From contig QKDN01000051.1 of assembly GCA_003252535.1 (NCBI GenBank), positions 62,001-126,000 on the forward strand: a stretch of 64,000 bases of DNA, in the 5' to 3' direction. The first letter of the stretch is position 1. Every line of letters begins with the position of its first letter. This stretch comes from Campylobacterota bacterium. Its GTDB lineage: Bacteria; Campylobacterota; Campylobacteria; Campylobacterales; Sulfurovaceae. This document shows positions 7,330-41,691 of the stretch, in pieces. The notes beneath the pieces were generated by a model. The model did not search any database. It saw only the letters and a program-made list of their open reading frames with translations, and was not told the origin of the DNA. The translations under genes were made by a program, and so were the position numbers.

Positions 7330-7383
7330 GAACCGTCAGATGAAAATGATGCTTTGATAAAGTCGGGAAGACCAGACCGTTTA

Positions 7384-7677
7384 TCACCCGATATGCACTG
7401 CCAGCCAGATCGTCCCCTGTACGACTGAGAGGACGCTGTGTGGCGTACGTGCGGGGATGAAGAGGCTTTCGCCCTTCGAGAGCCTGTGGGTCGTCCCGTC
7501 CATCTCCACTGTCGCCGCCCCGTCGATCACCACAACCCACTCGTCATCATCCTGTACATAGAGATTCTCTTCGATATTTTCAGAGCTTGCGATCCGCATG
7601 ATCCTGACATTTTTGTGAGAGAGGAGGGTGTCGAAGGCTTCCCCCTCCATAAGCATAGGGATGTCGTAGAGATTCAT
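7384..7677 (-). CDS. Small cupin-domain protein
   Basis: A 97-residue single-domain cupin. The core reads EWVVVIDGAATVEMDGTTHR-L-x-K-G-E-S-L-F-I-P-A-x-T-P-H-S-V, with the G-D/E-x-x-x-I-P-x-x-x-x-H pattern of cupin motif 2. The usual HxH-E metal set of motif 1 is not complete, so metal binding is uncertain. It lies one base after the riboflavin synthase stop and is surely on the same transcript. The family covers small-molecule enzymes and sensors; the substrate cannot be told from sequence. Confidence 0.8.
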   Translation of the reverse strand: MNLYDIPMLMEGEAFDTLLSHKNVRIMRIASSENIEENLYVQDDDEWVVVIDGAATVEMDGTTHRLSKGESLFIPARTPHSVLSVVQGTIWLAVHIG

Positions 7678-7678
7678 A

Positions 7679-8299
7679 TCAGTAGAGCGCCTGGATATGC
7701 TCGACCTCGTCCCAGCTCAGCGATCGTTTGGGGTTGCGGCCGTGGGAGAGGATGTGGTCGATATAGCGGGCGAAGAGATCGGTCTCTATATTGAGTTTCG
7801 TGCCGACCTTGTAGTCTCCGATGAGTGTTTCGCGCAGGGTGTGGGGGATGATGGTGAGGCGGAAGCTGTCGTCGTAGACATCGTTGACCGTGAGGCTCAC
7901 GCCGTCGATCGTGATGGAGCCCTTGGGGACGATATACCGGATATGTTCGGGATCGAGCGAGATGATGTAGTCGGTGGCATTGGTGCGCGGCGTGATCGAA
8001 GCGACGGTGCCGATACAGTCGACATGCCCCTGGACGACATGACCCTCGAAGCGGTCATCCATACGCATAGCAGGCTCCATGTGGACACGCCCCCTGAACT
8101 TCCCCATATCGACGATCGAGCGGGTCTCATCCGAGAGCTCGAGGTCGAAGCCGTCGCTGTGTACTTTGATGACGGTGAGGCAGATGCCGTTGATGGCGAT
8201 GCTGTCCCCGAGACCTGCTTTGTGGCAGGAGGCGATGGTGAGGATGTTGTTGGCGTATCTTTTGACGGTGGCTATTTCGCGAATGAGTCCGGTGAACAT
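7679..8299 (-). CDS. ribE: Riboflavin synthase, alpha subunit
   Basis: Catalyses the dismutation of two 6,7-dimethyl-8-ribityllumazine molecules to riboflavin and a pyrimidinedione, the last step of riboflavin synthesis in the cytosol. The 206-residue protein has the family's two lumazine-binding barrels. The N-terminus MFTGLIREI is diagnostic, SIAINGICLTV and GSITIDGVSLTVNDV are the paired repeats of the two barrels, and GHVVQGHVDCIGT is the signature loop. AGGGATAGT precedes the ATG and a TATAAT box lies 27 bases upstream. Confidence 0.96.
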   Translation of the reverse strand: MFTGLIREIATVKRYANNILTIASCHKAGLGDSIAINGICLTVIKVHSDGFDLELSDETRSIVDMGKFRGRVHMEPAMRMDDRFEGHVVQGHVDCIGTVASITPRTNATDYIISLDPEHIRYIVPKGSITIDGVSLTVNDVYDDSFRLTIIPHTLRETLIGDYKVGTKLNIETDLFARYIDHILSHGRNPKRSLSWDEVEHIQALY

Positions 8300-8325
8300 A
8301 CTATCCCTAGTTTCTAAGATAGCAA

Positions 8326-8331
8326 ATTATA
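8326..8331 (-). promoter_or_regulatory. -10 box for ribE-cupin
   Basis: Perfect TATAAT on the minus strand, 27 bases before the ribE ATG. No convincing -35 is visible, as is usual for Campylobacterota sigma-70 promoters. Confidence 0.6.
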
Positions 8332-8375
8332 GCAGAAGATACAAAAACTACACCCACCCGGGGTGCAGCAGGGTG

Positions 8376-9098
8376 CTAGTTGACCTTGTTGTATGGACGG
8401 GTTGGAGGAGGCGGTGTCTTGTCCTTGTCGTTCTTGCCGTGGTTGTGATGATTGGGTGGGTTTTGACCGGAATTGTTCGTATGGTTCACATTGCCCGTAT
8501 GGGTGCCGAAATTGTTGTGGGGGTGATTATTGGTCGTGGTGGTGCTTCGTGGCTGGCTGCTGTTCACAGTGCTTCTATTGCCCCCATAATTGGTGGAAGT
8601 ATTGTTCGTTGGATGGTTGTTGTTCTGGCCATAGTTATTGTTGTGCTGCGGTCTGTGGTCGTTTTGGTTGCGGTTGCCGTCCGGACGTCCCTGGTAGCGC
8701 TCGCCGTTGATATAGCGTGTATTGTTGTTGATATGGTGTTTTGGAGGAGTGTCATATGTGACTCCTACAGTGACACTGTTGTATGAAGGCTCATAATCAT
8801 AGCCGTGATCGTAGCGGTCATGGTCATTGTAAGGGTTGTGGACATGATGGGGGCGTTTGGATCTCCAGATGTACCAGTTGGGATAGTCATAGACCCAGTA
8901 GCCGCGCTTGCCGTACTCGCCGCACCATGGACCCCCTTCCCAATAGCCGTAATCATAATAATCGCCATACTGGTGGCGGTCGTGTCTGCACTCGAGTACC
9001 TGTTTGAGGCCGACATATTTGCCGTGGGCAGAAGAGAATCCGTCTCTGGCATAAAGCGAACCGATAGCCAGGAGGGTCAATAAAAGAAACTTTTTCAA
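8376..9098 (-). CDS. Secreted protein: one W/Y/G-rich 'WCG' domain plus His/Asn-rich tail
   Basis: A 240-residue secreted protein. I place the start at a TTG (9098) because AAGGAG lies 5 bases upstream and because the resulting MKKFLLLTLLAIGSLYA is a clean Sec signal; an in-frame ATG at 9128 lies before that ribosome site. Residues about 26-79 form a domain of pattern GKY-x2-L-K/R-Q-x-L-x-C-x2-D-R-x2-YG-x3-DYGYW-x-GG-x-WCG-x2-GK-x-GYWVY-x-YP-x-WY. It has Cys37 and Cys59, 22 residues apart. The remaining 160 residues are Asn/His/Pro/Thr-rich and probably disordered, with possible metal affinity. The neighbouring gene carries two copies of the same domain. I know no named family for it. Confidence 0.75.
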   Translation of the reverse strand: MKKFLLLTLLAIGSLYARDGFSSAHGKYVGLKQVLECRHDRHQYGDYYDYGYWEGGPWCGEYGKRGYWVYDYPNWYIWRSKRPHHVHNPYNDHDRYDHGYDYEPSYNSVTVGVTYDTPPKHHINNNTRYINGERYQGRPDGNRNQNDHRPQHNNNYGQNNNHPTNNTSTNYGGNRSTVNSSQPRSTTTTNNHPHNNFGTHTGNVNHTNNSGQNPPNHHNHGKNDKDKTPPPPTRPYNKVN

Positions 9099-9141
9099 AA
9101 GAGCTCCTTGAAGATGATAGAGTAGCATCTACTCAAAGCGA

Positions 9142-9147
9142 ATTATA
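9142..9147 (-). promoter_or_regulatory. -10 box for the His/Asn-rich secreted protein
   Basis: TATAAT on the minus strand, 44 bases before the proposed TTG start at 9098. Its position makes the ATG at 9128 lie only about 14 bases downstream of the box, without a ribosome site, which supports the TTG. Confidence 0.5.
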
Positions 9148-9212
9148 GATTTGGATGGAGAATGATAGATGAATAGAATGTAAATATTTGTCAACCGCAG
9201 GGGGCGGAGATT

Positions 9213-9899
9213 CTACCTCCTGCTCCCCCATACATACCAGTTGGGATAGACATAGACCCAGTAGCCACCTTTGCCCTGCTGCCCGCACCATCGGCCGCCT
9301 CTCCAGTAGCCGTAGTCGTAGTAGCTGCCGTAGGTACCCCTGTCCCGTTTGCAGTGGAGTTTCTGTCTGAGGTTGCGGTACTTACCGTACCCGGAAGCCT
9401 CTTCGGGGATCGGTCTCGTACGGGGTGGATTATTGCGTCTGAGGTCATTCCCGAGAGCCGGAGGTGGGAGGTCGCCGGAGCGCTCGAGCGTACCGCTGTT
9501 GCCCGATGGCGGAGTGTCATCGCCCGTATCTTCGGAGATAACGGGCGGTTGTGAGTTGTCGGCATTGTCATTTGACGGAGGGGCATTGTCCGCGGTGTCG
9601 ACCGGAGGCGGCATATCATCTGTGACAGGTTCCTGCGGTTTGTCGCTGTCGGCCTTCTTGCCCCAGACATACCAGCTGGGGTAGAGGTAGACCCAGTAGC
9701 CGCTCTTGCCCTGCTGCCCGCACCACGGGCCGCCGCCCCAGTAGCCGTAGTCGTTGAACTCACCGTAGCTCGCCCGATCCTTGCTGCACTCGAGCACCTG
9801 CCTGAGATCGGTATATTTGCCGTCAGCCGAACTGCGATCCCTGAGCGCAAAAGCGCCTGTGACAAAAACCGCCAACAAAAGGAAAAGAACCCGCTTCAT
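9213..9899 (-). CDS. Secreted protein with two W/Y/G-rich 'WCG' domains
   Basis: A 228-residue paralogue of the gene downstream of it. A Sec signal (MKRVLFLLLAVFVTGAFA) is followed by domain 1 (residues 27-80, Cys38 and Cys60), an acidic Pro/Asp/Asn linker (about 81-168), and domain 2 (residues 172-225, Cys183 and Cys205). Both domains keep DYGYW-x-GG-x-WCGQQGK-x-GYWVY-x-YP-x-WYVWG and the 22-residue Cys-Cys distance. A periplasmic disulfide-bonded fold with a sticky aromatic face is plausible but is inference. GAGGAG lies 5 bases before the ATG. The role is unknown; cell-wall or surface binding would suit it. Confidence 0.75.
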   Translation of the reverse strand: MKRVLFLLLAVFVTGAFALRDRSSADGKYTDLRQVLECSKDRASYGEFNDYGYWGGGPWCGQQGKSGYWVYLYPSWYVWGKKADSDKPQEPVTDDMPPPVDTADNAPPSNDNADNSQPPVISEDTGDDTPPSGNSGTLERSGDLPPPALGNDLRRNNPPRTRPIPEEASGYGKYRNLRQKLHCKRDRGTYGSYYDYGYWRGGRWCGQQGKGGYWVYVYPNWYVWGSRR

Positions 9900-9930
9900 A
9901 AGAACTCCTCATAATAAAATATAATAATCC

Positions 9931-9936
9931 ATTGTA
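9931..9936 (-). promoter_or_regulatory. -10 box for the two-domain WCG protein
   Basis: TACAAT on the minus strand, 32 bases before the ATG at 9899. It forms the left half of a divergent promoter region with the mnmG promoter. Confidence 0.4.
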
Positions 9937-9994
9937 CTCTTTTTAAACTAATCTCGAAATAAAAGAGCTCAAAGAGAGGGCGGTATATTTTGGG

Positions 9995-10000
9995 TATAAT
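9995..10000 (+). promoter_or_regulatory. -10 box for mnmG
   Basis: TTTTGGGTATAAT: a TATAAT box preceded by a T-rich run, 33 bases before the mnmG ATG. Confidence 0.65.
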
Positions 10001-10032
10001 TGCACATTTAGTAGCAATGTATAGGAAACACA

Positions 10033-11901
10033 ATGAATTATGATGTGATAGTGATCGGCGGCGGCCATGCGGGCGTCGAGGCTTCGCTCGCAGCGGCGCG
10101 GATGGGCTCGAAGACTCTCCTGGTGACGATCCTCGCCGAGCAGATAGGGGCGAGCAGCTGCAACCCTGCCATCGGCGGTCTCGCCAAAGGACACCTGGTC
10201 AAGGAGCTCGATGCACTCGGCGGCGAGATGGGTCTGGCGACCGACGCGACGGGGATACAGTTCCGTATCCTCAACGCCTCCAAGGGGCCTGCCGTCCGCG
10301 GGAGCAGGGCGCAGATCGATATGGACAGGTACCGCATCTATATGCGCGGCGTCGTCCTGGGTGCACCCAACCTCGAGGTGAAGCAGGAGATCGTCACGGC
10401 GCTCATCATCGATGACAATGCAGTCGGGGGTGTCGAGACGCAGCTGGGCAATATCTACCGTGCCCCCAAGGTGATTATCACTGCCGGCACCTTCCTCGAC
10501 GGCACCATCCATATCGGCTCCAAACAGCAGAAGGCGGGGAGACAGGGGGAGTTCGCCTCGATCGAACTCGCACAGTACCTCCGGACACTGGGGCTCAATA
10601 TCGGACGGCTCAAGACAGGCACATGCGCCAGGATCGACGGCAAAAGCATAGACTTCAGCGTGATGGAGCCGCAGGGGGGAGACGAGCCGCCGATCCCGTT
10701 CTCGTTCCGCACCGATCGGGCGAACTTCGACCCGGTACAGCTGCCGTGCCATGTCACCTATACCAACGAAACTACCCATAATATCATCGAGGGGAACTTC
10801 GACCGCGCGCCGCTCTTCTCGGGACAGATCGAGGGGGTGGGACCGCGATACTGCCCGAGCATCGAGGACAAGATCTATAGATTTCGTGATAGACCGCGCC
10901 ACCAGATATTCGTCGAGCCGCAGACCCTCGAAGCGACCGAGTACTATATCAACGGCATGAGCACCTCCCTCCCCACCGATGTGCAGCTCGATATGATCCG
11001 CTCGGTCGCAGGGATGGAGAACGCCAGGATCGTCCGCTACGGCTACGCGATCGAATACGACTATGTCGACCCGATGGAGCTCCACCACACCCTCGAGACC
11101 AAGAAGATCAGAGGGCTCTACTGCGCCGGACAGATCAACGGCACCACAGGCTACGAAGAGGCCGCCGCACAGGGGCTGATGGCGGGTATCAACGCAGCGC
11201 TGAGCGTCCAGGGGAAAGAGCCCTTCGTCCTCGGGCGCGACGAGGCCTATATCGGCGTCCTCATCGACGACCTCGTCACCAAGGGGACGAAAGAGCCCTA
11301 CCGTATGTTCACCAGCCGAGCCGAGTACAGGCTGCTGCTCCGCGAGGACAATGCCGACCTGAGGCTCAGCGAGTACGGTATCGCCCTGGGGCTCCTCGAC
11401 AGTGAGTACGCCGCCGCGCTCCTCACCAAAAAAGAGGCGATCGACGAAGCGATGGCTTTCCTCCGCGAGAACTACGCTACCCCGACCAAGGAGTTCCTCG
11501 CACAGCTCGAAGCGATCGGCGAGATGAAGATCAACGATAAGACCCACTGGATCGATATCCTCGGGCGCGGTGAGTTCGACCGCGAAAAGCTTGTCTCCCT
11601 CCTGCCGGATTTCGCCCGATACAGCGATGAGGTGATCGAGCAGATACTCGTCCAGTCGAAGTACAGCCGCTATATCGAGAAGCAGCAGTCGCAGATCGAC
11701 AGGATGCACGATATGCTCCAGGTACGCATCCCCGAGGGCTTCGACTACCGCAAGGTCTCGGGGCTCAGCAACGAGATCGTCGAGAAGCTCGAGCGCGCCA
11801 CCCCGCCGACACTCTTCGGCGCCTCGCAGATATCGGGCATCACCCCCGCCGCTCTGGAGATCATCCATATCTATATCAGGATGGCGCAGAGGAGTCGGTA
11901 G
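10033..11901 (+). CDS. mnmG: tRNA uridine-5-carboxymethylaminomethyl(34) synthesis enzyme MnmG
   Basis: FAD-dependent partner of MnmE that modifies U34 of tRNAs reading NNA/NNG codons, using methylene-tetrahydrofolate and glycine or ammonium. The 622-residue length fits the family (E. coli 629). The N-terminal dinucleotide-binding motif [12 protein letters not shown] is at residues 7-18. [23 protein letters not shown] and [23 protein letters not shown] are the two MnmG family signatures. The C-terminal helical region that docks MnmE and tRNA is complete. It stands alone between opposing genes. Confidence 0.97.
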
Positions 11902-13067: not shown

Positions 13068-14150
13068 TCAGGCGGCGGATCGGACGACGACCATATTTCT
13101 GCCGTTTCTTTTGGCTTCGTACATGGCACGATCAGCTCTGTAGATGATCTTTTCGGTCCTCTCGTCTTCTTCAAGGAGGACGGAGATACCGAAACTCCCC
13201 GTGAAAGAGATGGGGCTGTGTTCATAGATCACCTGCGCCCCGGCAAACTCTTCTCTGAGCCTTTCGGCATAGAGCTGTGCGCCGATATGGTCCGTCCCGG
13301 GGAGGAAGATGACGAACTCCTCGCCGCCATAGCGCGCGATGATATCGTCCTGACGGCTGTTCGCATTGAGGATATCGGCTACTGACATGAGCACTTTGTC
13401 CCCGGCAGGGTGGCCGTAGGTGTCATTGATCGATTTGAAGAGATCAAGGTCGAGCATGATGACGGCGCAGGTGTCACTGGCAGACTTGGCATCTGTGAAC
13501 CCCCGCTGGATATACCGGCAGAAAGCTCCCCGGTTCAGGAGTCCGGTGAGGGCATCGGTATCGGCAAGTTTGAGGAGTTCGTTGTTTTTCTTCTGGATGA
13601 TATCGAGGGTATCGCGGCGGCTCTTTTCGTAATAGGCGATCAGCATCACCAGCAGGATGGACGCCCCGGCGATATTGAAGATCGATTCGAATGTGAAGGG
13701 AGCCGGTTCCCATGTCTTATGGAAGGTGATCATCGTGCCGATATGGTAGCCGAAAAAGAGGGTCGTATAGATCGTCCCGTAGAGTCCCCCGAGGAGGAAG
13801 AAGGCCAGCGGGACGATGACGACCATCCAGTAATAGCCGTAGAAGAAGTACCGGTACATATCGAGGAAGCTCATGATCATGAAGGTGAAGATCAGCACGG
13901 CGCCCCATGCCCCGAGCATGACCCGGGAGGTTCGCCTGAAGAGATAGAGGACGATGAGATCGGCTGCGAAAGTGACAGCATTGATCACGGCGAGCTGCCG
14001 ATACCCTACGATATAATCTGCGACGGCGAAGAAAAGGTGCATCGCCATCAGCGAAAGGAGGAAGGTATTGATCAGGTAGACCCGGTGGTACTCCCTGTGA
14101 TCCCTGGCAAAAGTATAGTTGTTGCTTACGAATTTTTGCCAGCTGTACAT
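13068..14150 (-). CDS. Membrane diguanylate cyclase (6-TM sensor + GGDEF)
   Basis: Predicted to make cyclic di-GMP from two GTP. About six hydrophobic segments fill roughly the first 185 residues and act as an integral sensor of unknown ligand. A short helix (KKNNELLKLADTDALTGLLNR) joins them to the GGDEF domain. The active site is GGEEF, preceded by DLDLFKSINDTYGHPAGD, so catalysis looks intact. No RxxD inhibitory site is obvious just before it. The ATG at 14150 is preferred over the ATG at 14156 because AAGGA sits 5 bases before it. Confidence 0.92.
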   Translation of the reverse strand: MYSWQKFVSNNYTFARDHREYHRVYLINTFLLSLMAMHLFFAVADYIVGYRQLAVINAVTFAADLIVLYLFRRTSRVMLGAWGAVLIFTFMIMSFLDMYRYFFYGYYWMVVIVPLAFFLLGGLYGTIYTTLFFGYHIGTMITFHKTWEPAPFTFESIFNIAGASILLVMLIAYYEKSRRDTLDIIQKKNNELLKLADTDALTGLLNRGAFCRYIQRGFTDAKSASDTCAVIMLDLDLFKSINDTYGHPAGDKVLMSVADILNANSRQDDIIARYGGEEFVIFLPGTDHIGAQLYAERLREEFAGAQVIYEHSPISFTGSFGISVLLEEDERTEKIIYRADRAMYEAKRNGRNMVVVRSAA

Positions 14151-14334
14151 CCCCATCCTTCGCCTGTAGATCGTGTGGGCGCTATTGTATCCTTTTAACC
14201 GTTAAGCGAAAGTTTAAGTCTTCTATTGGCAAAGAGCCGGGAGCCAAGAGCTTTAAGTAAGTACTGATTCTATACATTATGGGATGGAAGTGCAGAGGAT
14301 GAGGAAATGGAGATAGCGGGAGGGGCGGGGAGGA

Positions 14335-15951
14335 TCACTTCCTCACCCATATCTCGACCCGTCTGTTCTTGTCGCGCCCGTTGGCGTCGGCGTTGTTGGC
14401 GACGGGGTAGTCCTCGCCGATCCCGATGATATTGTCGGGGGTGATGAGTATCCCTTTGGACTTGAAGTAGTAGAGCACCGATTTGGCACGCTCTTTGGAG
14501 AGGATGAGGTTCTTCTCCGCCGATCCGAGGTTGTCGGCGAAGCCGATGAGGTAGATGTTCTGCGCCGGGAAACTCCCCTCCTTGAGGTACTTCACGACCC
14601 TCTCGAGGTCTCTGAGCGCCTTGTTGTCGAGGTTCCTGCTGTTGGGCTCGAACCTGAAGTTGGTCGAGAGCCTCGTGAGCTCTTTGGCGAGGTTCTTGTA
14701 GTCGGTGGGCATCTCATCGGTGATGATGGGATGGAACTCTTTGATATTGAGATCGATAAAGTTGGTCGCATCGACGATCTCCTGCCCTTTGGAGGAGAGG
14801 ACGAACTCTACGAAATCCTTGACGACTTTGGACGAAGCGTCGGTCGTATAGAGGTAGAGTCTTCTGGCAAGCGGGTAGTCCTCGGTAGCGACGGTGAACT
14901 TGTCGGGTTTGATCGTCATCTCTCCGTCCGAGATCGCCAGCTCTTTGGTGTCGAGGATATAGGGGAGACCGCCGAAGCCGATAGCGTTGATATCGCCCGA
15001 TACGTCATCGGAGAGCTTTTTGTTGTCCTCGTAGCGGGTCGCGCTCTGTGCGAGGGGGAGCTCGTTCATGATGAGGGTGTTGAAGGTATCCCATGTACCC
15101 GAGTTCTCGTCCCTTGCGAGCACCTTGATAGCCCCTTTCTCACCCCCGACCTGGCTCCAGTCGGTGACGGTGCCTGTGTAGATATCCTTGATCTGGTTCG
15201 TGGTGAGCCTGAAGATCGGGTTCTTTTTGTTCACGAAGACCGCCACGCCGTCGATAGCGATGATGTGTTCGTTCTGCGGCGATCTCATGTCTCCGTGGGC
15301 TGAGAGCTTCTGCGCCTCTTCGGACTTGATCCTGCGTGAAGCCATGGCGATATCGCATGAATCCTTCGCGATATCCTTGAACCCTGTCGATGAACCGTGG
15401 GCATGCACCTCTATCTTGATCTCTTTGCCGTCAAGGATAGCGTATATCTCCTGCTCCTCTTTGGCTTTCTCGCTCTGGGTGATGTTGGTCGCGCCGATAG
15501 AAGCAAGGTAGCCCTTGATGAGGGCAGGGGCGAGCTCTGCGCCGATAGTGTTGGAGCCGTGTATCCTGAAGAGGTAGTCACCGCTGGCAGCAGGTGCGGC
15601 AGCCGTATCCTTCGCATCAGTCGTGCCTGGCTGGGACTCGGACGGTGCGGAGCTGTCTATAGACTTGATATCGCTGTTCCTGATCTTGAGGTAGTAGTTG
15701 TTGTCGACGAACTTGACGATCTGGGTCGATACGTCGGTATTGTTGGCGAAACGGACATAGTCGGGTGTGCCGTACTTGACCTGGAGTATCTGTGATTTGT
15801 GTATCTTGAAGATATGTGAGCCGTTCTCTATCGAGTGGACTCCCGCCTCGAAAGATGCTCCGTTGCCAAGTTTGATAGATTCTCCCATACCGGCCTGGAT
15901 CATGAGGGCGAACATCAGCAGCACCCTCGCTATTATCGGTAGAAATTTCAT
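14335..15951 (-). CDS. PstS-like binding protein fused to a C-terminal OmpA domain
   Basis: A 538-residue secreted fusion. After the signal peptide come a beta-rich N-terminal domain (about 25-110), a Pro/Ala/Thr linker, and a phosphate-type substrate-binding domain (about 130-395). The latter has RIHGSNTIGAELAPALIKGY, HGSSTGFKDI and ARDENSGTWDTFNTLI, the PstS-family ligand-loop signatures. An OmpA peptidoglycan-binding domain (about 425-538) follows, with IGFADNLGSAEKNLILSKERA and NRRVEIWVRK. OmpA would tether it to the cell wall. No pst transporter genes are adjacent, so it may capture or sense phosphate or a related anion rather than feed a dedicated permease. AAAGGAA lies 6 bases before the ATG. 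Confidence 0.9.
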   Translation of the reverse strand: MKFLPIIARVLLMFALMIQAGMGESIKLGNGASFEAGVHSIENGSHIFKIHKSQILQVKYGTPDYVRFANNTDVSTQIVKFVDNNYYLKIRNSDIKSIDSSAPSESQPGTTDAKDTAAAPAASGDYLFRIHGSNTIGAELAPALIKGYLASIGATNITQSEKAKEEQEIYAILDGKEIKIEVHAHGSSTGFKDIAKDSCDIAMASRRIKSEEAQKLSAHGDMRSPQNEHIIAIDGVAVFVNKKNPIFRLTTNQIKDIYTGTVTDWSQVGGEKGAIKVLARDENSGTWDTFNTLIMNELPLAQSATRYEDNKKLSDDVSGDINAIGFGGLPYILDTKELAISDGEMTIKPDKFTVATEDYPLARRLYLYTTDASSKVVKDFVEFVLSSKGQEIVDATNFIDLNIKEFHPIITDEMPTDYKNLAKELTRLSTNFRFEPNSRNLDNKALRDLERVVKYLKEGSFPAQNIYLIGFADNLGSAEKNLILSKERAKSVLYYFKSKGILITPDNIIGIGEDYPVANNADANGRDKNRRVEIWVRK

Positions 15952-16158
15952 TGTGATTCCTTTATGATCGATTGTCTTCGATTTGCGACCTGTTTATGGA
16001 TAGGTCGTGGTGACATCGGCGCAATTTTAAGGCAGATATGAAACAATTTGATAACATTCAAAAAACGAAAAACTGCTGTTTTTTCCTCTTTCTGTTACCT
16101 TCTTGTTGCCATCGTCGACTAAACTTCCGTCAAAACTAATCTATATCAGGGAGTGAAA

Positions 16159-19100
16159 ATGGGATTGAAACATATTCGGATCAACCTTATGATGGTGCTG
16201 GTGGTACTGGTTGCGGTCTTCACCGTAGGGGTGTTCTTTGCCATGACCACCTGGAGCAGATACGGTACGACACTTGAGCTCAGACAACATATCGAGAAGA
16301 ACAGGCTGCTCCAGAACCTGGTCGTATCGGTCGCAGGGGAGATCGCCTGTACGAGCAAGATGAACTCCAATATCGGGGAACTTGCCAAAGAGTGCCAGAA
16401 CAGCAGGAACAGGACCGATATCGCCCTCGAAGAGATCACCGCCTACGACGATACCACACCGTGGCCGCAGAGGATCAAAAGCTTCTTCTACCCCACCGCT
16501 TCCAAACGCGCAAGCATATCGATCTTCGAGGAGAAGAACCTCCGAAGAGAGCTCCAGAAGATCAGGGACTCCCTCGACAATGCCTCTGAGATCACGATCG
16601 AGCAGCTCATCGACGGCGAGTACCAGCACCGGTTCATCGCCCCGATCCAGACCTACTGGAGCAATGCAGAGCTCTACGGTGATGCCGGCGACAAATCCTA
16701 CCTCGGACTCTACAACCTCCTCACGAGAGCCCATGTCGATACGATATCCGATACTATCTTCGGTGCCTATTTCCTCACTAACAAACGGGGATTCAGCTCC
16801 GAGAACTTCTCGCTGTGGGACAAGTACGCCACCCTGGCATCACTCCCCGAGCTGAAGAAGGTACAGAACATCACGATGGTCAAAGAGTCGCTTTTCAATC
16901 TCTTCGGCTCCAAGGAGGCACAGACGGTCGTAGACGGTGTCGACAATATGCGTATCGATATGCTCCTCAGCCGCGAGAGCAAGAACAGCGAGACGACCAT
17001 CGACGGATGGATGGCAACGAGCAAGAAAAAGATGGAGCTCTATGAAAAGGCCGAGGAGAGTACCCTCGGATACCTCGAAGAGCAGGCGAACACCAAGATA
17101 GAGGAGAGCGAATCGGTCTTCATGGCCGCCATCCCGGCAACCGTGATGAGCTTCGTGCTCTTCCTCTTCACCCTCAAACTGTACTTCGAGCGCCGCAGAC
17201 GGGAGCACGAAGCCCTCAGGTTCGTCATGGACGACCTCGAATCGCTCACCAAAGAGAGCCGTAGGGAGATGGGGAGCTCCGAGGAGATCCTCCGCGACCT
17301 CTCCGACAAGGAGCAGATCTACAGGTATATCGGCTCGATCATCACCCTCCTGCGCCAGAAAGAGATACAGGCAGAGGAGGCGAGCAACGCCAAAGACCTC
17401 TTCCTCGCCAATATGTCCCACGAGATACGCACCCCGCTCAACGGTATCGTAGGGTTCACCCAGCTGCTGCGTGAGACCGCGCTCGCCAAGGACCAGCAGG
17501 AGTTCGTCACCATCATCGAGAACAGCTCCGAGAACCTGCTGGCGATCGTCAGCGATATCCTCGACCTCTCCAAGATCAACGCGCAGAAGATGGAGCTCGA
17601 GCACATCGCGTTCGATATCTTCGAGAAGGTCGAATCCTCAGTAGAGACCTTCGCCGCCAAAGCGGACGAAAAAGAGATCGCCCTCTGTGCTTACACCGAT
17701 CCCGCACTCCCGCGCCATCTCCTCGGCGACCCCACCAAGCTTGCGCAGGTGCTCAACAATCTCATCAGCAACGCCATCAAGTTCACCCCTGACAAAGGGA
17801 CGATCACCCTCTCCATGACGCGCGAGAGCGAGGACGGGGAGCGCTGCCGCATCCGCTTCGGCGTCAAGGACTCGGGGATCGGGATCAGCAGGGAGCAGAA
17901 GGAAAAGATATTCCAGGCGTTCACCCAGGCTGATTCGAGTACGAGCCGTGAGTTCGGCGGTACGGGTCTGGGGCTGACGATCTCCTCGGCTATCGTCCAC
18001 TCAATGGGCGGGATGCTCGAAGTGGAGAGCGAGGTGGGCAACGGGGCGGAGTTCTATTTCACCCTCGACCTCGAGAAGGACAGGAACCACAAAGCATCGC
18101 CCAAACGCTCCTACCGTCCGTTCAAGGCAGGGATCGTCGCTGCCGACAGCCGCAATATCACCCACGCCGAGCGTGCCCTCCACGAATACATCTCCCACGA
18201 GGGGATCGATGTGACCCTCTACGGTGTCGAGACGATCGTCAATCTCAGAAGTGCCAGCGATCTTCCCGAGCTCCTCATCATCGACCACAGTGATTTCAGG
18301 GATGCGGCGATGCTGAACGCACTGGTCAAACTCGATATCAAAGTGGTGCTGATGACCACCGGAAGTCTCAAAAAAGAGCTCGATGCTGCCCTCCAGGAAC
18401 GGATCAGTGTCATCTACAAGCCGGTCACACGCTCCAAGACCCTGCGGATACTCGAAGGTTTTGTCGAGGGTGCCGTGACCCAAAGCGCACCCAGGAGTGA
18501 CAAGCCGGCTGCGAACCGTTTCGGCGATATGCGCGCCCTTGTCGCCGAGGACAATACGATCAACCAGAAGCTCATCAAAGTGACGCTCGAGAACTTCGGT
18601 ATGCACGTCACGATCACTTCCAACGGCAAAGAAGCCTATGAAGCAAGACAGAACGGCGAGTACGATATCATCTTCATGGATATCCAGATGCCGGTGATGA
18701 ACGGACTCGAAGCGACCGAAGCGATCATGGCATACGAAGAGAGAGAAGGGCTGGTACATATCCCTATTATCGCCCTCACCGCCAACGCCCTCAAAGGGGA
18801 CAGGGAGAAATACCTCCGCGCCGGTATGGACGGGTACGCCTCCAAACCGCTCAACCTCCTCGAACTCCAGGCGATCATCGCTGAGTTGAGCCTCAAGAAG
18901 GATGAGAACGGGAACAGAAAAGAGCAGCCGGCCAAATCCAGCCATACCGAGAGAGAGACCCATATGTTCATCCCTCAGGGTGTGCATAGCGAACAGAAAA
19001 AGGTCAAGGATCCCCATGAGACCAAAGGGGACGGAGAGCACAAAAAGCCCAAAAAGAAGAAAAAGCACAAGAACAAGCACGGCAAGAAGATCCTCCTCTT

Positions 19101-33738: not shown

Positions 33739-34584
33739 TCAGAGAAGTTCTATCCTGCTGCCGAGGTTGCTCATCCCGGCGCTGTAGAGGCTGCTCGTCA
33801 CCACCGCGTCGATCCCCAGTGCGGCGAATTCCCTGACATTGGCGCGGTTGATGCCGCCGGCTGCGAGTATCTTGACCCGGGGGTAGTTCGTATCCCTTTC
33901 ACGGACGATGCCCGAGATCACTTCGGGATCGGCCTTGTCTATCTGTATCGCGTCCGCGCCGTGCGCCATGAGGGCGGTCGCATCGGCGAGGGTGGAGGAT
34001 TCGACGACGATCATCTTTTCGGGGGTTTTACGCCGGAACTCTTCTATCGCGCCGTAGAATGCCTCGTCACTCCCGTAGACGATCCTGTGCTGCTCGAAGA
34101 GGAGGATCGTCTCGCTGAGGCTGAGGCGGTGGGGCATCGCGCCGCCTGTCATCACCGCCTTGATGCAGAGGCGTTTGGCGAAGGGGAAGCTCTTGCGGGT
34201 GGTGAGGAGCTCGCAACGGTCGTTGACCTCAGCGATGGCGCGTTTCATCTCGGAGGCTGCGGTCGCCATGCGGGTGGTGTACTCGAGGAGTATCTGGACG
34301 GAGCGCCAGAGGCGGTGGATGGTATTGTAGTCGCCGCGGAGGGTGAGGAGCTCAGCCCCCTCCACAGCTCTGTGTCCGCTCGGGAGGAGATATGCCGTTT
34401 CGCAGCCGTGCATATCGGCTATCGCCCGTACCTCCTCGGCGCACGCCATGACGATCTCCTCACGGGTGAAAATGGTGAGCTGCGCATTCTGGCCTGTCAC
34501 CCCCTGGAGGTGGGTCGTGAGGTCGAAGTAGGGGAGATCCTCGCGGAGGTACTCTTCGAGTTCGGTTCGGGTGAGTGTGTACAC
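33739..34584 (-). CDS. modD: ModD-type protein (quinolinate phosphoribosyltransferase paralogue)
   Basis: A 281-residue protein of the NadC fold. EDLPYFDLTTHLQG at the N-terminus, ATAASEMKRAI, TRKSFPFAKRLCIKAVMTGGAMPHRLSLSETILLFEQH and ILAAGGINRANVREFAALGIDAVVTS match ModD, the paralogue found in molybdate-transport operons. True NadC has the R-K-T-x-P-x-R signature; here it is T-R-K-S-F-P-F-A-K. It is the last gene of the porin-modA-modB-modD operon, 13 bases after modB. ModD has been linked to molybdenum uptake by position; its reaction is not established. Confidence 0.88.
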   Translation of the reverse strand: MYTLTRTELEEYLREDLPYFDLTTHLQGVTGQNAQLTIFTREEIVMACAEEVRAIADMHGCETAYLLPSGHRAVEGAELLTLRGDYNTIHRLWRSVQILLEYTTRMATAASEMKRAIAEVNDRCELLTTRKSFPFAKRLCIKAVMTGGAMPHRLSLSETILLFEQHRIVYGSDEAFYGAIEEFRRKTPEKMIVVESSTLADATALMAHGADAIQIDKADPEVISGIVRERDTNYPRVKILAAGGINRANVREFAALGIDAVVTSSLYSAGMSNLGSRIELL

Positions 34585-34597
34585 ATTGGTTCCTTTA

Positions 34598-35266
34598 TTA
34601 GATTTTTTCTTTTTGTAAAAAGCTCAGTATGATAAAAAACAGTAAAGAGATGACGATCAGTATCCCGCTCAGGGTCAGGGCCAGGTCGTGGTCGCCGTCG
34701 AATACGGCATTGTAGATCGCCAGCGATATGGTATCGGTTTTTCCTATAATGTTCCCTCCGAGCATCAGCGTGATCCCCACTTCGCCAAATGCCCTGGCCG
34801 AGGCGATCAGCAGGGCGGCAAAGAGGGATTTCCTGATACTGGGGAGGACGATACGGATGAGCGTGGCGGTGCCGCTTTTGCCAGAGATATAGGAGGCTTC
34901 TTTGATATTCTGCGGAAAGAGTTCGATAGCCGACTGGAGCGGCTTGACCATCAGGGGGAGGCCCGCGACGAATCCGGCGATGACCAGCCCCTGAAAACTG
35001 AAAACAAAGGAGATATCAAACTGTGCAAAGAAGCCTCCTATCGCACCGTTCCTGCCAAGCAGGAGCAGGAGGAAGAACCCCACCGCGATAGGGGGAAAGA
35101 TCAGCGGCATCGTCACGGCGGCGTCGAGGAGCCAGCGGCATCGCATCCGTCTTTCGGAGAGGATATAGGCCAGCGGCACACCGACGAGCAGATAGAGCAG
35201 CGCGCTCATACCGACCGTTTTGATACTGAGAATAAGCGGCGGGAGTATATTCTCAAGTCCGATCAT
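34598..35266 (-). CDS. modB: Molybdate ABC transporter permease
   Basis: A 222-residue inner-membrane permease with about five membrane segments. The cytoplasmic EAA-type loop that docks the ATPase is present (EASYISGKSGTATLIRIVLPSIRKSLFAALLIASARAFGEVGITLMLGGN). PLIFPPIAVGFFLLLLLGRNG and the RAFGE motif identify the ModB/WtpB/TupB group; molybdate versus tungstate cannot be separated by eye. It starts 3 bases after the modA stop. No ATPase gene (modC) follows or occurs in this window. Confidence 0.92.
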   Translation of the reverse strand: MIGLENILPPLILSIKTVGMSALLYLLVGVPLAYILSERRMRCRWLLDAAVTMPLIFPPIAVGFFLLLLLGRNGAIGGFFAQFDISFVFSFQGLVIAGFVAGLPLMVKPLQSAIELFPQNIKEASYISGKSGTATLIRIVLPSIRKSLFAALLIASARAFGEVGITLMLGGNIIGKTDTISLAIYNAVFDGDHDLALTLSGILIVISLLFFIILSFLQKEKI

Positions 35267-35269
35267 GTC

Positions 35270-35980
35270 CTAGAGCCCGTATCTCTTGAATATCTCTCTG
35301 GCTTTCGGCGATCCCATATAGGCGATCAGTTCGCTGCACTCTTTGCCGTCGCAGGTACTGAGCTTCCCAGCAACTATCTCGATAGGGGTGTAGAGCTTCG
35401 GGTCTACTGCGATGGAGCTCCCCAGCTGGTCGCGGTTGGCAAGGTAGGCGGTGAGATTGATGATCCCGGCATCGACCTCGCCCGTGGTCAGATAGGCCAC
35501 TACCTGCGGGATCGTCGCGACGATATAGAGCTTTGGTTTGACCTCCTCATAGAGCTTTGCATTTTTGAGGAACTCTTCCCCGGTGACCCCGTAGATCGCT
35601 TTTGAGGGCTGCGGCATGGCTATCCTGGAGATATCGGCACTTTTGAGGGTATCGAGTCCATCGTTTCGGGTGATCTTTCTGGCAAAAGCTACGACCACTT
35701 TCCCATCTCCCAGAGAGGTGTACTCTTTGATATCGAGTTTTGATTTTTTCTCCAGGAAACCTTTGTCCCCTATGATCAGCGCCACGTCGGTGTTGCGGGC
35801 GTGTTCGACGCTTTGTTTCATATTGCCGTAGAGGGCGTCGACCTTGATCCCTTTCTCCTCCTCGAAGGCCCTGAGGACTTCGCTGAGCGGTTTTTTGTAC
35901 CCTGCCGCTACGGCTATCTTCATCTCTCCGGCGTTGACAAGCAGCGACAACACTGCGGCAATGAGTAGTATACGTTTCAT
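35270..35980 (-). CDS. modA: Molybdate (or tungstate) binding protein
   Basis: A 236-residue periplasmic binding protein with a Sec signal (MKRILLIAAVLSLLVNAGE). MKIAVAAGYKKPLSEVLRAFEEEKGIKVDALYGN is the ModA-type N-lobe; GVTGEEFLKNAKLYEEVKPKLYIVATIPQVVAYLTTGEVDAGIINL is the C-lobe with the family Val-Asp-Ala-Gly turn. The usual first-lobe S-S ligand pair is replaced here by NMKQSVEHA, closer to several Campylobacterota forms, so ligand choice is uncertain. It sits 9 bases after the porin gene. Confidence 0.9.
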   Translation of the reverse strand: MKRILLIAAVLSLLVNAGEMKIAVAAGYKKPLSEVLRAFEEEKGIKVDALYGNMKQSVEHARNTDVALIIGDKGFLEKKSKLDIKEYTSLGDGKVVVAFARKITRNDGLDTLKSADISRIAMPQPSKAIYGVTGEEFLKNAKLYEEVKPKLYIVATIPQVVAYLTTGEVDAGIINLTAYLANRDQLGSSIAVDPKLYTPIEIVAGKLSTCDGKECSELIAYMGSPKAREIFKRYGL

Positions 35981-35989
35981 CTTCTCTCC

Positions 35990-37285
35990 TTAAAACTTGA
36001 GCTGTATCTGCATAAAGACGCCGTAGGCATCATCGTCGGTGATATACTGGTCCTTCGTCGCCGCTTCGGCTATATAGTCGCCTGCGGTGAAGTAGGAGAA
36101 TCCAAGCTGCAGCGAGAGGACCTTGTCGTACTTGTAGACGGCGACCAGGTCGATCTCGTCGCCGTATTCGTCACTCTTGATATCCTTGATGGTGTAGCTC
36201 TTCCACTTGTTGGTCGGCTCGTCGGCGTAGAACTTGTGGTATTCGAGCTTGATATCTGTTTTGGGAAGTCCTTTGTAGATCGCGAAGAGTTCGTAATCTT
36301 TGAGGTTGCTCCAGCTGAAAAGGTTGAGTCTGCCGTAGTACTTGTCGCTCGCTCCGAATACGCCGTCGAAGGTCTCCCTCTCGGGCGTCGTCGGGTCGTC
36401 GCCGCTGGCGTAGGTGTAGCCCACCCCGATCTTGAGCTTCTGTGGTTTGAACCTGTATCCCCCTTCGAGATGGTATCCCTGCGCGTCTATATCGACCGTG
36501 GTTCCGTCGGTTTTGGTGTACTCTCCGAGCGCTTTGATATAGGTGGTGTCGTAGAAGAAGCCGTGGAAATCCTCATCATAGAGTCTGAATCCCAGGTAAT
36601 AGCTCTCGAGCTTGTTGTACATATCGTTCGCTTCGTCGTTGAGCTTGTAGGCGGCGATGGGCTCGAAAGCACCGCTTTTGCCGAGGGCATAGTGTCCGTA
36701 GAGTCCACCGCCGGTGTAGCCGTGACGATGTTCGGTGCTGAGCTCGTCGGGGTCATGGAGCATCGTCCCGCCGTAGAAGAGATCGATGAAGTTCTCGCCG
36801 TCTTTGTAGGAGGCCTTGAGGGCGTCCCAGACCCATTTGCCGGCGTTCTTCCATTCGCCCGGACCGAAGACGCGGTTGTCACCGTAGGCGATCTTCTGCC
36901 GTCCCGCTTTCACCTCGTAGTGCTCGTCGTGGTACCTGAGGTAGGTTTCGTAGAATTCGGTGTTGTCCTGCTGCGGGTTGTTGACCATCCCGAACTCTTT
37001 GCTGTACCAGTCGCTGTTGTCGAAGCTCCACCCAAAGACCCTCGAATCCTGCAACGATGCACGGAGCTCGAGAGAGTCGGTCAGGTCATAGGTGAACCCG
37101 ATACGGATACGGGTGAGCATATAGCTGTCGTCGCTCGAGCCTGTTTTGGGGTTGGCGCCGTAGTACTTCTCATTGACATTGTCAAAAACCTCATAACGGT
37201 ATCTCACCTCCCCATCGGCGCTGAAGTCGGCATAAGCGGCCGATGAGAGCGAAAGTATCGCCAAAGCTGTGATCTTGTGTTTCAT
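35990..37285 (-). CDS. Outer-membrane porin, alginate-export-like barrel, first gene of the mod operon
   Basis: A 431-residue outer-membrane protein with a signal peptide ending AYADF and a C-terminal LKF. KAGRQKIAYGDNRVFGPGEW and KNAGKWVWDALKASY are the hallmark of the alginate-export/AlgE-like porin group (large 16-18-strand barrels). FDGVFGASDKYYG and the alternating strands fit. It heads the operon followed 9 bases later by modA, so it may be the outer-membrane entry port for molybdate or tungstate. That substrate is inference from position and from the ModE-like operators upstream. Members of this barrel group elsewhere take organic anions or other solutes. Confidence 0.88.
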   Translation of the reverse strand: MKHKITALAILSLSSAAYADFSADGEVRYRYEVFDNVNEKYYGANPKTGSSDDSYMLTRIRIGFTYDLTDSLELRASLQDSRVFGWSFDNSDWYSKEFGMVNNPQQDNTEFYETYLRYHDEHYEVKAGRQKIAYGDNRVFGPGEWKNAGKWVWDALKASYKDGENFIDLFYGGTMLHDPDELSTEHRHGYTGGGLYGHYALGKSGAFEPIAAYKLNDEANDMYNKLESYYLGFRLYDEDFHGFFYDTTYIKALGEYTKTDGTTVDIDAQGYHLEGGYRFKPQKLKIGVGYTYASGDDPTTPERETFDGVFGASDKYYGRLNLFSWSNLKDYELFAIYKGLPKTDIKLEYHKFYADEPTNKWKSYTIKDIKSDEYGDEIDLVAVYKYDKVLSLQLGFSYFTAGDYIAEAATKDQYITDDDAYGVFMQIQLKF

Positions 37286-37317
37286 AGTGTCTCCTTGGAT
37301 AAGTGTCCTTTGTTCTA

Positions 37318-37345
37318 TGCATTGTATATTCCAGTATACAACGAA
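37318..37345. promoter_or_regulatory. ModE-like box, promoter-proximal (downstream of -10)
   Basis: TGCATTGTATA-N6-TATACAACGAA, an inverted repeat with TTGTATA/TATACAA cores and 6-bp spacing. The right half matches 9 of 11 positions of the ModE half-site TATATAACGAT (consensus from memory). It lies between the -10 box and the porin ATG. Confidence 0.6.
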
Positions 37346-37351
37346 AACAGG

Positions 37352-37357
37352 ATTATA
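37352..37357 (-). promoter_or_regulatory. -10 box of the porin-mod operon
   Basis: TATAAT on the minus strand, 67 bases before the porin ATG. It is placed exactly between the two ModE-like boxes. Confidence 0.65.
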
Positions 37358-37362
37358 GCCAC

Positions 37363-37390
37363 ATCTTTATATATTTTTGTATATAACGAT
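37363..37390. promoter_or_regulatory. ModE box, upstream of -10
   Basis: ATCTTTATATA-N6-TATATAACGAT. The right half is a perfect match to the ModE half-site and the left half differs at only one or two positions from the known consensus ATCGNTATATA-N6-TATATAACGAT (recalled, not searched). It covers the -15 to -45 region of the operon promoter, a position expected to block RNA polymerase. Confidence 0.8.
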
Positions 37391-37438: not shown

Positions 37439-37996
37439 CTAGAGTGGTTTGCGGGCTGCGAGCGAGCCTTTCATCGTGCGCGCCCCTTTGTAGTCGGTGT
37501 CCCAGTACTCGCGCAGCTCGATGATCTCGAGATCGGAGCCGAACATCGCCGCGAGTTCCCCCTCTTCGAGGAGAAAGGTGCGGTTGGCGGTGGAGGGGTC
37601 GTTGTCGGGGTGGTAGATGAAGGTCTCGATGATAAGGATGCCGTGCGGGGCCAGTGCGTCGGGGAACTGCCCGTAGAGCCTGCGGTCGAGGAAGTAGGTG
37701 CAGACGATGAGGTCGTAGCTCCCGGTGAGGGTGAAGCGGTCGAAGTCGATTTCTCGCGCATCGATCCCCTCGATCCCCCGGAGCGATCCTATGGCGGTGG
37801 AGCTGATATCGAGCGCATCGACCGTGAAGCCGTGCGCGGCGAGGTAGCGTGCGTTACGCCCCATGCCGCAGGCGACATCGAGGGCCCTGCGGGCGGGTGC
37901 GAGGGCGGCATACTCGGTGAGGAGTCCGACGGGTCTGTCTGGGATGGGGTAGTCGAGGTGTTTCCTGTCCCACTTCTCTTTGTCCTGGAGCGACAT
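37439..37996 (-). CDS. Class I SAM-dependent methyltransferase (TehB/UbiG-like)
   Basis: A 185-residue cytosolic methyltransferase. Motif I is ALDVACGMGRNARYLAAHGF, followed by VDALDISSTAIGSL and YDLIVCTYFLDRRLYGQFPDALAPHGILIIETF. This resembles the TehB-like/small-molecule branch. The start at 37996 is used because AAAGG lies 6 bases upstream; the frame could extend to 38044, but that adds a non-conserved stretch crossing the promoter. It is transcribed alone. Substrate unknown. Confidence 0.82.
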   Translation of the reverse strand: MSLQDKEKWDRKHLDYPIPDRPVGLLTEYAALAPARRALDVACGMGRNARYLAAHGFTVDALDISSTAIGSLRGIEGIDAREIDFDRFTLTGSYDLIVCTYFLDRRLYGQFPDALAPHGILIIETFIYHPDNDPSTANRTFLLEEGELAAMFGSDLEIIELREYWDTDYKGARTMKGSLAARKPL

Positions 37997-38897: not shown

Positions 38898-38935
38898 TGA
38901 TGATATTCAAAGAGTAGATGGGATACAATCTGCTT

Positions 38936-39775
38936 ATGAGGCAGATAAGTTTGATATATATACTCGCACTATTTATGTATGCCGTATCGGTGGAAGCGGC
39001 ACAGGGCAAAAAGGTGATCAATTTCGCCCCGCTCCCCATCGAAGAGCGTTCGAAAGTGCTCAAGGAGTTTATGCCTTTCTTCGCCTATGTAGAGGAGAAG
39101 AGCGGGATAGAGACCAACTTTGTTTTCGAAACGGACTATTCGAAGATCATCGAGAAGTTCAGGTCGGGGAAGATCGATATGGTTCTCCTCGGTCCGCTCC
39201 CCTATATCAAGCTGCGGCAGAGCTATCCCGACGCAAAACCCATCATCGCATTGCATGAGAAGGACGGCAAGCCCCACTACCGCTGCGTACTGGCGAAGTT
39301 CGGCAACGATACGGTCGATACGGGGCGGCAGATCAGGGTCGCGCTGACCCAGCCCCTCTCCACCTGCGGCTACTATATGAGCAGCCGGCTTGTCAGGGAG
39401 CATTACGGCCTGGATCTCGACCGTCAGCTCTTCGACTATACCATGTCGCATGAGAATGCGCTGCTGCGGGTGCTCGAAGGGAGATTCGATATCGCCGGGG
39501 TCAAGGAGAATATAGCCAGGGGATATGCTTCGCTGGGGATCGAGGTGATCGCGCAGAGCCCCTACCTCCCCGGATTCGCATTCGTGGTCAATACCCGGAC
39601 CCTCACGAAAGAACAGATAAGGCTCCTTCAGGAGACTATCGCTTCGATCCCCGAAGCCCGGTATAAGGAGTGGTCCAAAGAACTCTCCTACGGTTTCTCA
39701 CCGGTCGATGAGAAGACATACGATATCTTCGATGTCGATTTCGATACGATCATCCTCCACGGAAATACACGATGA
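38936..39775 (+). CDS. PhnD/SsuA-type periplasmic ligand-binding protein
   Basis: A 279-residue periplasmic binding protein with a Sec signal. FAPLPIEERSKVLKEFMPFFAYVEEKSGIETNFVFETDYSKIIEKFRSGKIDMVLLGPLPYIK is the N-lobe of the PhnD family (phosphonate-type). VRVAL/ALTQPLSTCGYYMSSRL and LRVLEGRFDIAGVKENIARGY form the ligand hinge. It overlaps the diguanylate cyclase gene by ATGA and no transporter is nearby, so it most likely presents its ligand to that sensor rather than to an ABC permease. The start is uncertain: an in-frame ATG at 38918 adds six residues, and a TACAAT at 38924-38929 lies between the two. Confidence 0.85.
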   Translation: MRQISLIYILALFMYAVSVEAAQGKKVINFAPLPIEERSKVLKEFMPFFAYVEEKSGIETNFVFETDYSKIIEKFRSGKIDMVLLGPLPYIKLRQSYPDAKPIIALHEKDGKPHYRCVLAKFGNDTVDTGRQIRVALTQPLSTCGYYMSSRLVREHYGLDLDRQLFDYTMSHENALLRVLEGRFDIAGVKENIARGYASLGIEVIAQSPYLPGFAFVVNTRTLTKEQIRLLQETIASIPEARYKEWSKELSYGFSPVDEKTYDIFDVDFDTIILHGNTR

Positions 39776-41691
39776 GAGCGAAAATAGTACTCGCCATCTA
39801 TTTCCTCCTGGTCATAGTATCCAACTACGCCGTCACGATCTATGCAGAAAATGCCAAAAAGGTCGAGATCGAATCGTTCAACAACGAATCGCTCCGGAAG
39901 CTCGATGTAGCCTACCGTTCGATATGGAACACATTCAAGATCGTCACGAAAATACATGCGGACAATATCATCCGGGACCAGAAGCTCCTCTCGCTGCTCA
40001 GGGACTTCAAATACGAGAGCGATCCGTGGAAACGGTCACTGCTGCGCGGCGAGCTCTACCGGCACCTTTACGGGGAGTATGACGAACTGAAGAGTTTGGG
40101 TATCAGGCAGCTGCATTTCCATACCTGCGACGGGAAATCCCTCCTGCGATTCCACTTCCCTTCGAAGAACGGCGACAGTCTTGCAGCGATCCGGAAGTCC
40201 ATCCGTGATACCAACGAAAAACTCGTCCCCTCATATGGGTTCGAAGGGGGGAGGATATATTCGGGTTTCCGCTATGTCTTCCCCGTCATGCAGGGCTCCG
40301 AACATCTCGGCAGCGTTGAGCTCTCGATCCCTTTCGATACGATAGAGAAAGAGCTCCAGGCAGTCCTCCCCGCAGGGTATCAGCTCCACCAGGACAAAGC
40401 ATCGGTCTATGAGAAGATATTCGATCCGTACAAGGATATCATGCTCCCGTCGCCTGTCCTGAGCGACCACTATATCGAAAACCCTCATATCTCCGAAGTG
40501 GAGAAAAAGATCGCTTCCAACAGGATCGTCAACCGGCTCTATCCGCTGATCGCAAAGAATGCCGAATTCAGGCACATGCAGCATACCCTTCACAACTTCA
40601 GTATCAACATTTTCGACGGTGACGGAGGGTACAGCATCCTCTTCCTGGATATCAGGGATACCGAAGGGAAGCACGGAGCCTACCTCGTCTCATACAGCCG
40701 TCTCAACATCCTGCTCGAGATCGAGAAGAGGTTCGATATACTGACCATCATCCTCGATCTGGCCGTTGTCATCATCCTCACGCTGGGGTATGTCGTCTAC
40801 AGGCAGTTCGAGAGTATGCGTACCCAGGGGCACACCCTCCAGAACCTCATCGATATGCAGGAGAACATCATCCTCCTCAGCAACGGGATCAGGATCAGCT
40901 ACGCCAACCGCAAGTTCTTCGATTTCTTCGGGATCGATGATCTCTCCGAATTTTTGGATGGGCACAGGTGTGTCTGCGAAACTTTCATCCGTGACGATGC
41001 ATACTTCCATCTGGGCAAACTCGGGGATAAGAGCAACTGGATCGAGGCGATCATGGTGCTTCCCCACGCACAGCGGATCGTCTCCATCGCCGATACCAGG
41101 GGCGCGGTGCATATCTTCACCATATCGTTCAACCGCTACGACAACGATCTCTATATCTTCAGCTTCACCGATATCACCGCCACGGTCGAAGAGAAGAGCA
41201 TTCTCCGGGAAAAGACGATCCATGACAAGCTCACCGGGGTCTACAACCGCGAATATTTCGACCAGACCTATACAGGTCTCCTCGAAGAGTGCCGTACCCA
41301 ACAATACCTCGCCGCCTTCGCGATCATCGATATCGATCTCTTCAAGCGGGTCAACGACACCTACGGGCACGATACCGGCGACCGGGTACTCATGGAATTC
41401 GCATCGAGGATCGACCGGTACTCGAGGAAAGAGGACATCCTCATCCGCTGGGGCGGCGAGGAGTTCGTCCTGAGCATGAAGGTCAAGGAGCCGGCGGGAC
41501 TTCAGACGGCCCTGGAGCATATCCGTCAGGTGATAGCGGCCGAACCGTTCGAGGGGGTCGGGTCACTGACATGTTCCATCGGCGGTACGCTCTACAGGGA
41601 GGGTGAAGAGATCGGCGAGACGATCAAAAGGGCTGATGAAGCGCTTTATCTCGCCAAAGAGAGAGGGAGGAACTGCACCGTCATCGTCTGA
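39772..41691 (+). CDS. Membrane diguanylate cyclase: periplasmic Cache-like sensor, PAS, GGDEF
   Basis: A 639-residue protein. TM1 (about 5-25), a periplasmic double-Cache-like domain of about 295 residues, TM2 (about 323-346), PAS (about 355-475) and GGDEF (about 485-639). The active site is GGEEF after IDIDLFKRVNDTYGHDTGD, so cyclic-di-GMP synthesis is expected. The periplasmic part, paired by a 4-base gene overlap with a PhnD-like binding protein, suggests that the binding protein delivers the signal. Its end overlaps the convergent PhoX-like gene by 11 bases. Confidence 0.92.
   Translation: MRAKIVLAIYFLLVIVSNYAVTIYAENAKKVEIESFNNESLRKLDVAYRSIWNTFKIVTKIHADNIIRDQKLLSLLRDFKYESDPWKRSLLRGELYRHLYGEYDELKSLGIRQLHFHTCDGKSLLRFHFPSKNGDSLAAIRKSIRDTNEKLVPSYGFEGGRIYSGFRYVFPVMQGSEHLGSVELSIPFDTIEKELQAVLPAGYQLHQDKASVYEKIFDPYKDIMLPSPVLSDHYIENPHISEVEKKIASNRIVNRLYPLIAKNAEFRHMQHTLHNFSINIFDGDGGYSILFLDIRDTEGKHGAYLVSYSRLNILLEIEKRFDILTIILDLAVVIILTLGYVVYRQFESMRTQGHTLQNLIDMQENIILLSNGIRISYANRKFFDFFGIDDLSEFLDGHRCVCETFIRDDAYFHLGKLGDKSNWIEAIMVLPHAQRIVSIADTRGAVHIFTISFNRYDNDLYIFSFTDITATVEEKSILREKTIHDKLTGVYNREYFDQTYTGLLEECRTQQYLAAFAIIDIDLFKRVNDTYGHDTGDRVLMEFASRIDRYSRKEDILIRWGGEEFVLSMKVKEPAGLQTALEHIRQVIAAEPFEGVGSLTCSIGGTLYREGEEIGETIKRADEALYLAKERGRNCTVIV

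Follow-up and report, generated by a model that had tools for sequence, protein, structure and literature searches.

At nanomolar concentrations, passage of molybdate and tungstate across the outer membrane is usually left to general porins. In the 64,000-nucleotide stretch of DNA from a sulfur-oxidizing Campylobacterota bacterium analyzed here (the window), a porin gene lies directly ahead of molybdate transport genes and behind two putative ModE operators, which raises the question whether this porin is part of the ModE regulon and serves uptake of molybdenum or tungsten (Mo/W). The operators are inverted repeats of the form ATCGNTATATA-N6-TATATANCGAT. The strong, upstream operator (ATCTTTATATA-TTTTTG-TATATAACGAT, positions 37363–37390, 32.1 bits) has one mismatch to the consensus, and the weaker, downstream operator (TGCATTGTATA-TTCCAG-TATACAACGAA, positions 37318–37345, 21.2 bits) has two. 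Their start-to-start distance is 45 bp, and 78 nt separate the end of the strong box from the porin ATG. A candidate −10 box, TATAAT, is read on the minus strand between the two operators (positions 37352–37357), and a ribosome-binding site, AAGGAG, is read on the same strand ahead of the porin (37291–37296). No TTGACA was found in the porin promoter sequence at 16–19 bp from TATAAT. The preliminary description of the locus had placed both boxes correctly to the base, with a TATAAT between them. If transcription starts about 7 nt past the −10 box, the strong box spans about −18 to −45, the −35/spacer region, and the weaker box about +1 to +28; given this putative start, the operator pair is a predicted clamp on the porin promoter. 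The upstream gene, coding for a TehB-like methyltransferase (37439–37996), is co-directional with the porin, and 48 bp separate its end from the strong box. The boxes therefore serve the porin operon only.

Open reading frames and family scans bore out the order porin-modA-modB-modD that had been proposed downstream of the boxes. The four genes lie on the minus strand with intergenic gaps of 9, 3 and 13 bp, and no ATPase gene was found in the operon. The porin (431 amino acids, 35990–37285) belongs to the Alginate_exp family (Pfam PF13372, 116.8 bits against a gathering threshold of 25.2). The modA product (35270–35980) exceeds the TIGR01256 cut-off (90.6 vs 62.5) and was assigned, by alignment and modeling, to a divergent “GYKKP/GNM” subfamily. 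Two further products score just below their curated cut-offs: the modB permease (34598–35266; TIGR02141, 181.4 vs 182.6) and the quinolinate-phosphoribosyltransferase-like ModD (33739–34584; TIGR01334, 175.8 vs 178.85), which also matches the Pfam QRPTase family and scores 128.9 with the nadC model. Elsewhere in the window (38918–41691), open reading frames point to a likely sensor pair: the gene for a phosphonate-binding-like periplasmic protein overlaps one for a membrane GGDEF protein.

The AlphaFold model of the porin, built with 23 sequences, has a mean pLDDT of 83, a pTM of 0.82 and 18 strands. A Foldseek search with this model placed AlgE at the top, with a TM-score of about 0.7, followed by C. 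jejuni MOMP and the Occ/OprD group; the protein is thus a predicted 18-strand barrel nearest to AlgE. It shares both the Pfam family and the AlgE-like barrel with the alginate porins, but is only 14–15% identical to AlgE by structural alignment, has no recognizable alginate genes adjoining it among the open reading frames read and is joined to the Mo regulon. Neither single-sequence nor profile searches found PDB relatives of the porin, and the pore residues of AlgE therefore cannot be mapped onto it by sequence. The net charge, summed over the whole protein rather than the pore interior, is −23; this is contrary to what an anion-selective pore suggests, and charge was rejected as support for anion selectivity.

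Could the boxes be a chance outcome of an AT-rich promoter? The intergenic region is indeed 65% A+T, in a window of 54% G+C. We built a symmetric scoring matrix from 16 boxes, all taken from genomes other than this one. The matrix ranked the strong and the weaker box first and second in the window, the next place scoring 6.8 bits, and the best of 45 simulated 64-kb windows reached 13.5 bits. Neither box score was reached by any of 20,000 random sequences with the intergenic base composition. Whole-genome counts, which rest on pattern searches, gave three sites with at most three mismatches to the E. coli-like consensus in 2,924,503 bases, two of them the pair at the porin promoter, and none for the reversed pattern. 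Since the boxes are, in addition, conserved at porin orthologs and absent from unlinked family members (see below), simulation and comparative control together rule out a chance origin, the probability of which we regard as negligible. The third site of the genome (contig C7, 6200–6227, 29.8 bits) lies 98 bp before a gene for a 465-amino-acid beta-CASP ribonuclease-like protein, which is followed by a P-type ATPase-like gene; a link to molybdenum is not evident there.

A regulator for these sites is encoded in the genome. Proposed ModE control had been made dependent on a modE gene, and one full-length ModE of 259 amino acids, with a helix-turn-helix and two Mop domains, is encoded on contig C49. 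It exceeds the cut-offs for the ModE repressor domain (TIGR00637, 106.5 vs 98.5) and the Mop domain (TIGR00638, 131.3 vs 55, in two stretches) and falls below that of the enterobacterial equivalog PRK10676 (177.7 vs 369). Ahead of modE, in a run of three genes (locus L003, 6991–10045), lie two weaker boxes scoring 20.8 and 18.6 bits at a distance of 41 bp from each other; the nearer one overlaps the AAGGAG of modE. One base after modE an OprD-type porin gene begins (Pfam, 36.7 vs 25), followed by a canonical modA (182.4 bits, compared to 90.6 for the operon's ModA). Contig C40 carries mop-modB-modC with no recognizable ModE box. No modC above the curated cut-off was found in the genome; the C40 ATPase (TIGR02142, 192.0 vs 285.05) nonetheless comes after mop-modB.

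Many Campylobacterota have a single modE-modA-mop-modB-modC operon with tandem boxes ahead. In the genome studied here the canonical mod set is split in two, with a porin inside, and porin-modA-modB-modD forms a second set without an ATPase. In another genome (locus L130) modE-modA-mop-modB-modC is fused in one run with a second, variant modA and a modB, with a single ATPase for both sets, which suggests that ModC is shared between the two sets. Tandem ModE boxes 33–70 bp apart precede most of the Campylobacterota modE operons read (L122, L130, L089, L092 and others). Helical phasing of such boxes was considered and rejected, the spacings following no single period.

We next compared 20 loci with orthologs of the porin (49–66% identical), the locus studied here and 19 others, of which those with names come from Sulfurovum, Sulfurimonas and a deltaproteobacterial bin. 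With the matrix, a box of at least 15 bits was found within 260 bp upstream in 17 of the 20, with a close pair in eight. Because the matrix was partly trained on some of these loci, the independent figure is the 14 of 20 obtained when the E. coli-type consensus alone was used, with up to three mismatches allowed. The search for the same porin beside mod genes in relatives, which the preliminary description had proposed, was positive: mod or modE genes adjoin the porin in 13/20 loci. The neighbors are modA or modABD at the locus studied here and at L065, L026/L027 and L031; mop-modB-modC at L066–L068 and also at L065; modE at L020, L021, L033, L039 and L070; and modD at L038. Three loci have no good box and seven no mod neighbors. 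At L038 (112–5136), from one Sulfurimonas, two ModE boxes precede the porin, an SsuA-like binding protein, a permease, a WtpC/ModC-like ATPase and modD: the type of ABC transporter has been swapped, the porin and modD kept. At L079 (contig C73 of genome G243; 6665–11523 and 13890–18748), box, porin gene and two upstream genes occur twice about 7.2 kb apart, apparently identical.

The rest of the Alginate_exp family served as a control. Ten relatives without mod neighbors have no box, several of them lying beside rhodanese and efflux genes; three distant relatives have one, and in one of these (L077) modA-modE is close by. On the porin tree, the presence of a box is clustered: the label changes five times, compared to a mean of 10.4 after shuffling. 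Of 399 genomes sampled from the order, 12 have a close ortholog of the porin; all 12 encode ModE, compared to 243 of the 399 overall. Nine other genomes of the organism's own genus had no close ortholog, and the operon's ModA had distant matches only; since both are missing from the rest of the genus sampled, the porin-mod unit is accessory. With a full-length ModE in the genome and boxes before the porin in most relatives, the proposed control by ModE is strongly supported and, as far as sequence evidence goes, near certain.

Control by ModE would also be expected if the porin admitted the substrate of a molybdoenzyme, such as nitrate, thiosulfate or a sulfur oxyanion, rather than the metal. 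ModE of E. coli also controls molybdoenzyme genes. However, uptake or sensor genes adjoin the porin in the 13 loci named above, and the arrangement of its operators matches that at modE transport operons. We therefore consider this alternative decidedly unlikely, and a role of the porin in Mo/W uptake likely.

The association of ModE sites with outer-membrane proteins extends beyond one porin family. In 23 whole genomes of relatives, 14 sites with at most two mismatches to the consensus were found, compared to two for the reversed control. All 14 could be placed: six before Alginate_exp porins (G388, G243 twice, G287, G326 and G315), three before OprD porins (G153, G326 and G408), two before TonB-receptor systems (G287 and G408), two before modA (G377 and G019) and one before modE (G031). 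Among the loci read, 79 of 83 boxes of at least 18 bits are located at a gene for a porin, ModE or ModA, a figure that shows position within loci only, because the loci were picked for these genes. OprD-type porins occur in modE operons or behind boxes of their own at L003, L065/L127, L114, L115, L117 and L129. In G287 (L113, 5947–10476) and G408 (L115, 5101–9631), the genes behind a 33.9-bit box downstream of modE encode a BtuF-like binding protein, a TonB-dependent receptor and a BtuC/FecCD-like permease with ATPase. Together they make up a candidate TonB uptake system under ModE control. The ModE regulons of these bacteria have thus acquired outer-membrane components by at least three routes, namely Alginate_exp porins, OprD porins and TonB-receptor systems.

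ModE-regulated mod operons are known from E. coli (modABC), from Geobacter sulfurreducens (modDABC; PMC545781) and from Campylobacter jejuni, for which ModE with separate Mo and W transporters is described (Taveirne et al. 2009, as cited in PMC7759655). The operon studied here has in common with them the ModE protein, the box, its repression-type placement and mod transport genes; unlike them, it begins with an outer-membrane porin, has two boxes flanking the −10 element, lacks an ATPase and encodes a divergent ModA. A predicted Fur-controlled porin-feoAB of G. sulfurreducens (PMC545781) likewise places a porin and an inner-membrane metal transporter under the common control of a metal sensor, but metal, regulator and porin family differ. 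The open-access literature searched, which includes few subscription papers, yielded no description of a porin under ModE control.

The best explanation of these data, to which we assign a probability of roughly 0.7, is that the operon is repressed by ModE and encodes an envelope-spanning uptake route for a molybdenum or tungsten species. When molybdate or tungstate is plentiful, loaded ModE dimers would occupy both operators and shut the promoter between them, repression that we infer by analogy with E. coli ModE. When the metal is scarce, the operon would be derepressed, Mo/W species would pass the outer membrane through the 18-strand porin and be caught in the periplasm by the divergent ModA, and ModB would import them with the ModC ATPase encoded on contig C40. 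From position only we infer that the porin passes these species and that ModC is shared. Because the pairing of box and porin recurs in many relatives, the porin is probably a dedicated outer door for Mo/W that opens on metal shortage.

The identity of the cargo is less clear. The preliminary description had proposed a dedicated molybdate/tungstate channel; the tie of the porin to Mo/W stands on its neighborhood in relatives, and the dedicated channel remains conjecture, with the ModA without canonical ligands, the SsuA-type partner at L038 and the negative charge of the porin as points against it. A narrower version of the uptake reading, compatible with it, is that free molybdate is not the cargo of the porin and the divergent ModA. 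They would instead handle another form of Mo/W, such as thiomolybdate, only tungstate or a chelate of the metal, with molybdate being taken by the canonical modA beside modE and by mop-modB-modC. Two ModA types do coexist in the genome, as their scores show. The canonical oxyanion ligands of E. coli ModA are S12, S39, A125, V152 and Y170, and in an alignment with the E. coli protein the operon's ModA has the positions of S12, S39 and Y170 replaced. Seven loci have this subfamily (window 35270–35980, L065, L031, L027, L118, L130 and L114); in most of them AGYK, GN(M) and NLT-type motifs occupy the positions of the usual ligands, and the divergent ModA is usually found with modB and modD and without an ATPase of its own. 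At L038 the porin and modD have remained associated despite the exchange of the ABC transporter, and the sulfidic habitat of Sulfurovum and Sulfurimonas makes thiomolybdate plausible. Yet the operon's ModA still passes the family cut-off, and its model matches known ModA structures, pointing to a ModA-like fold. On balance we regard a non-molybdate cargo as a tentative possibility. Rather unlikely is the more specific proposal of a dedicated route for such species made up of the porin, the divergent ModA and ModD. Its cargo could, for instance, be thiomolybdate, in sulfidic water, or a pyridine-carboxylate chelate, in which case ModD would go on to process the ligand.

For the uptake reading as a whole, the repeated occurrence of porins of two families within the ModE regulon makes them direct candidates for an outer-membrane channel for Mo/W, and the question becomes testable in culturable relatives such as Sulfurimonas. 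In addition, the divergent ModA and the enigmatic ModD are brought together in a single regulated unit. If true, a route for species other than molybdate would give the quinolinate-transferase-like ModD a function.
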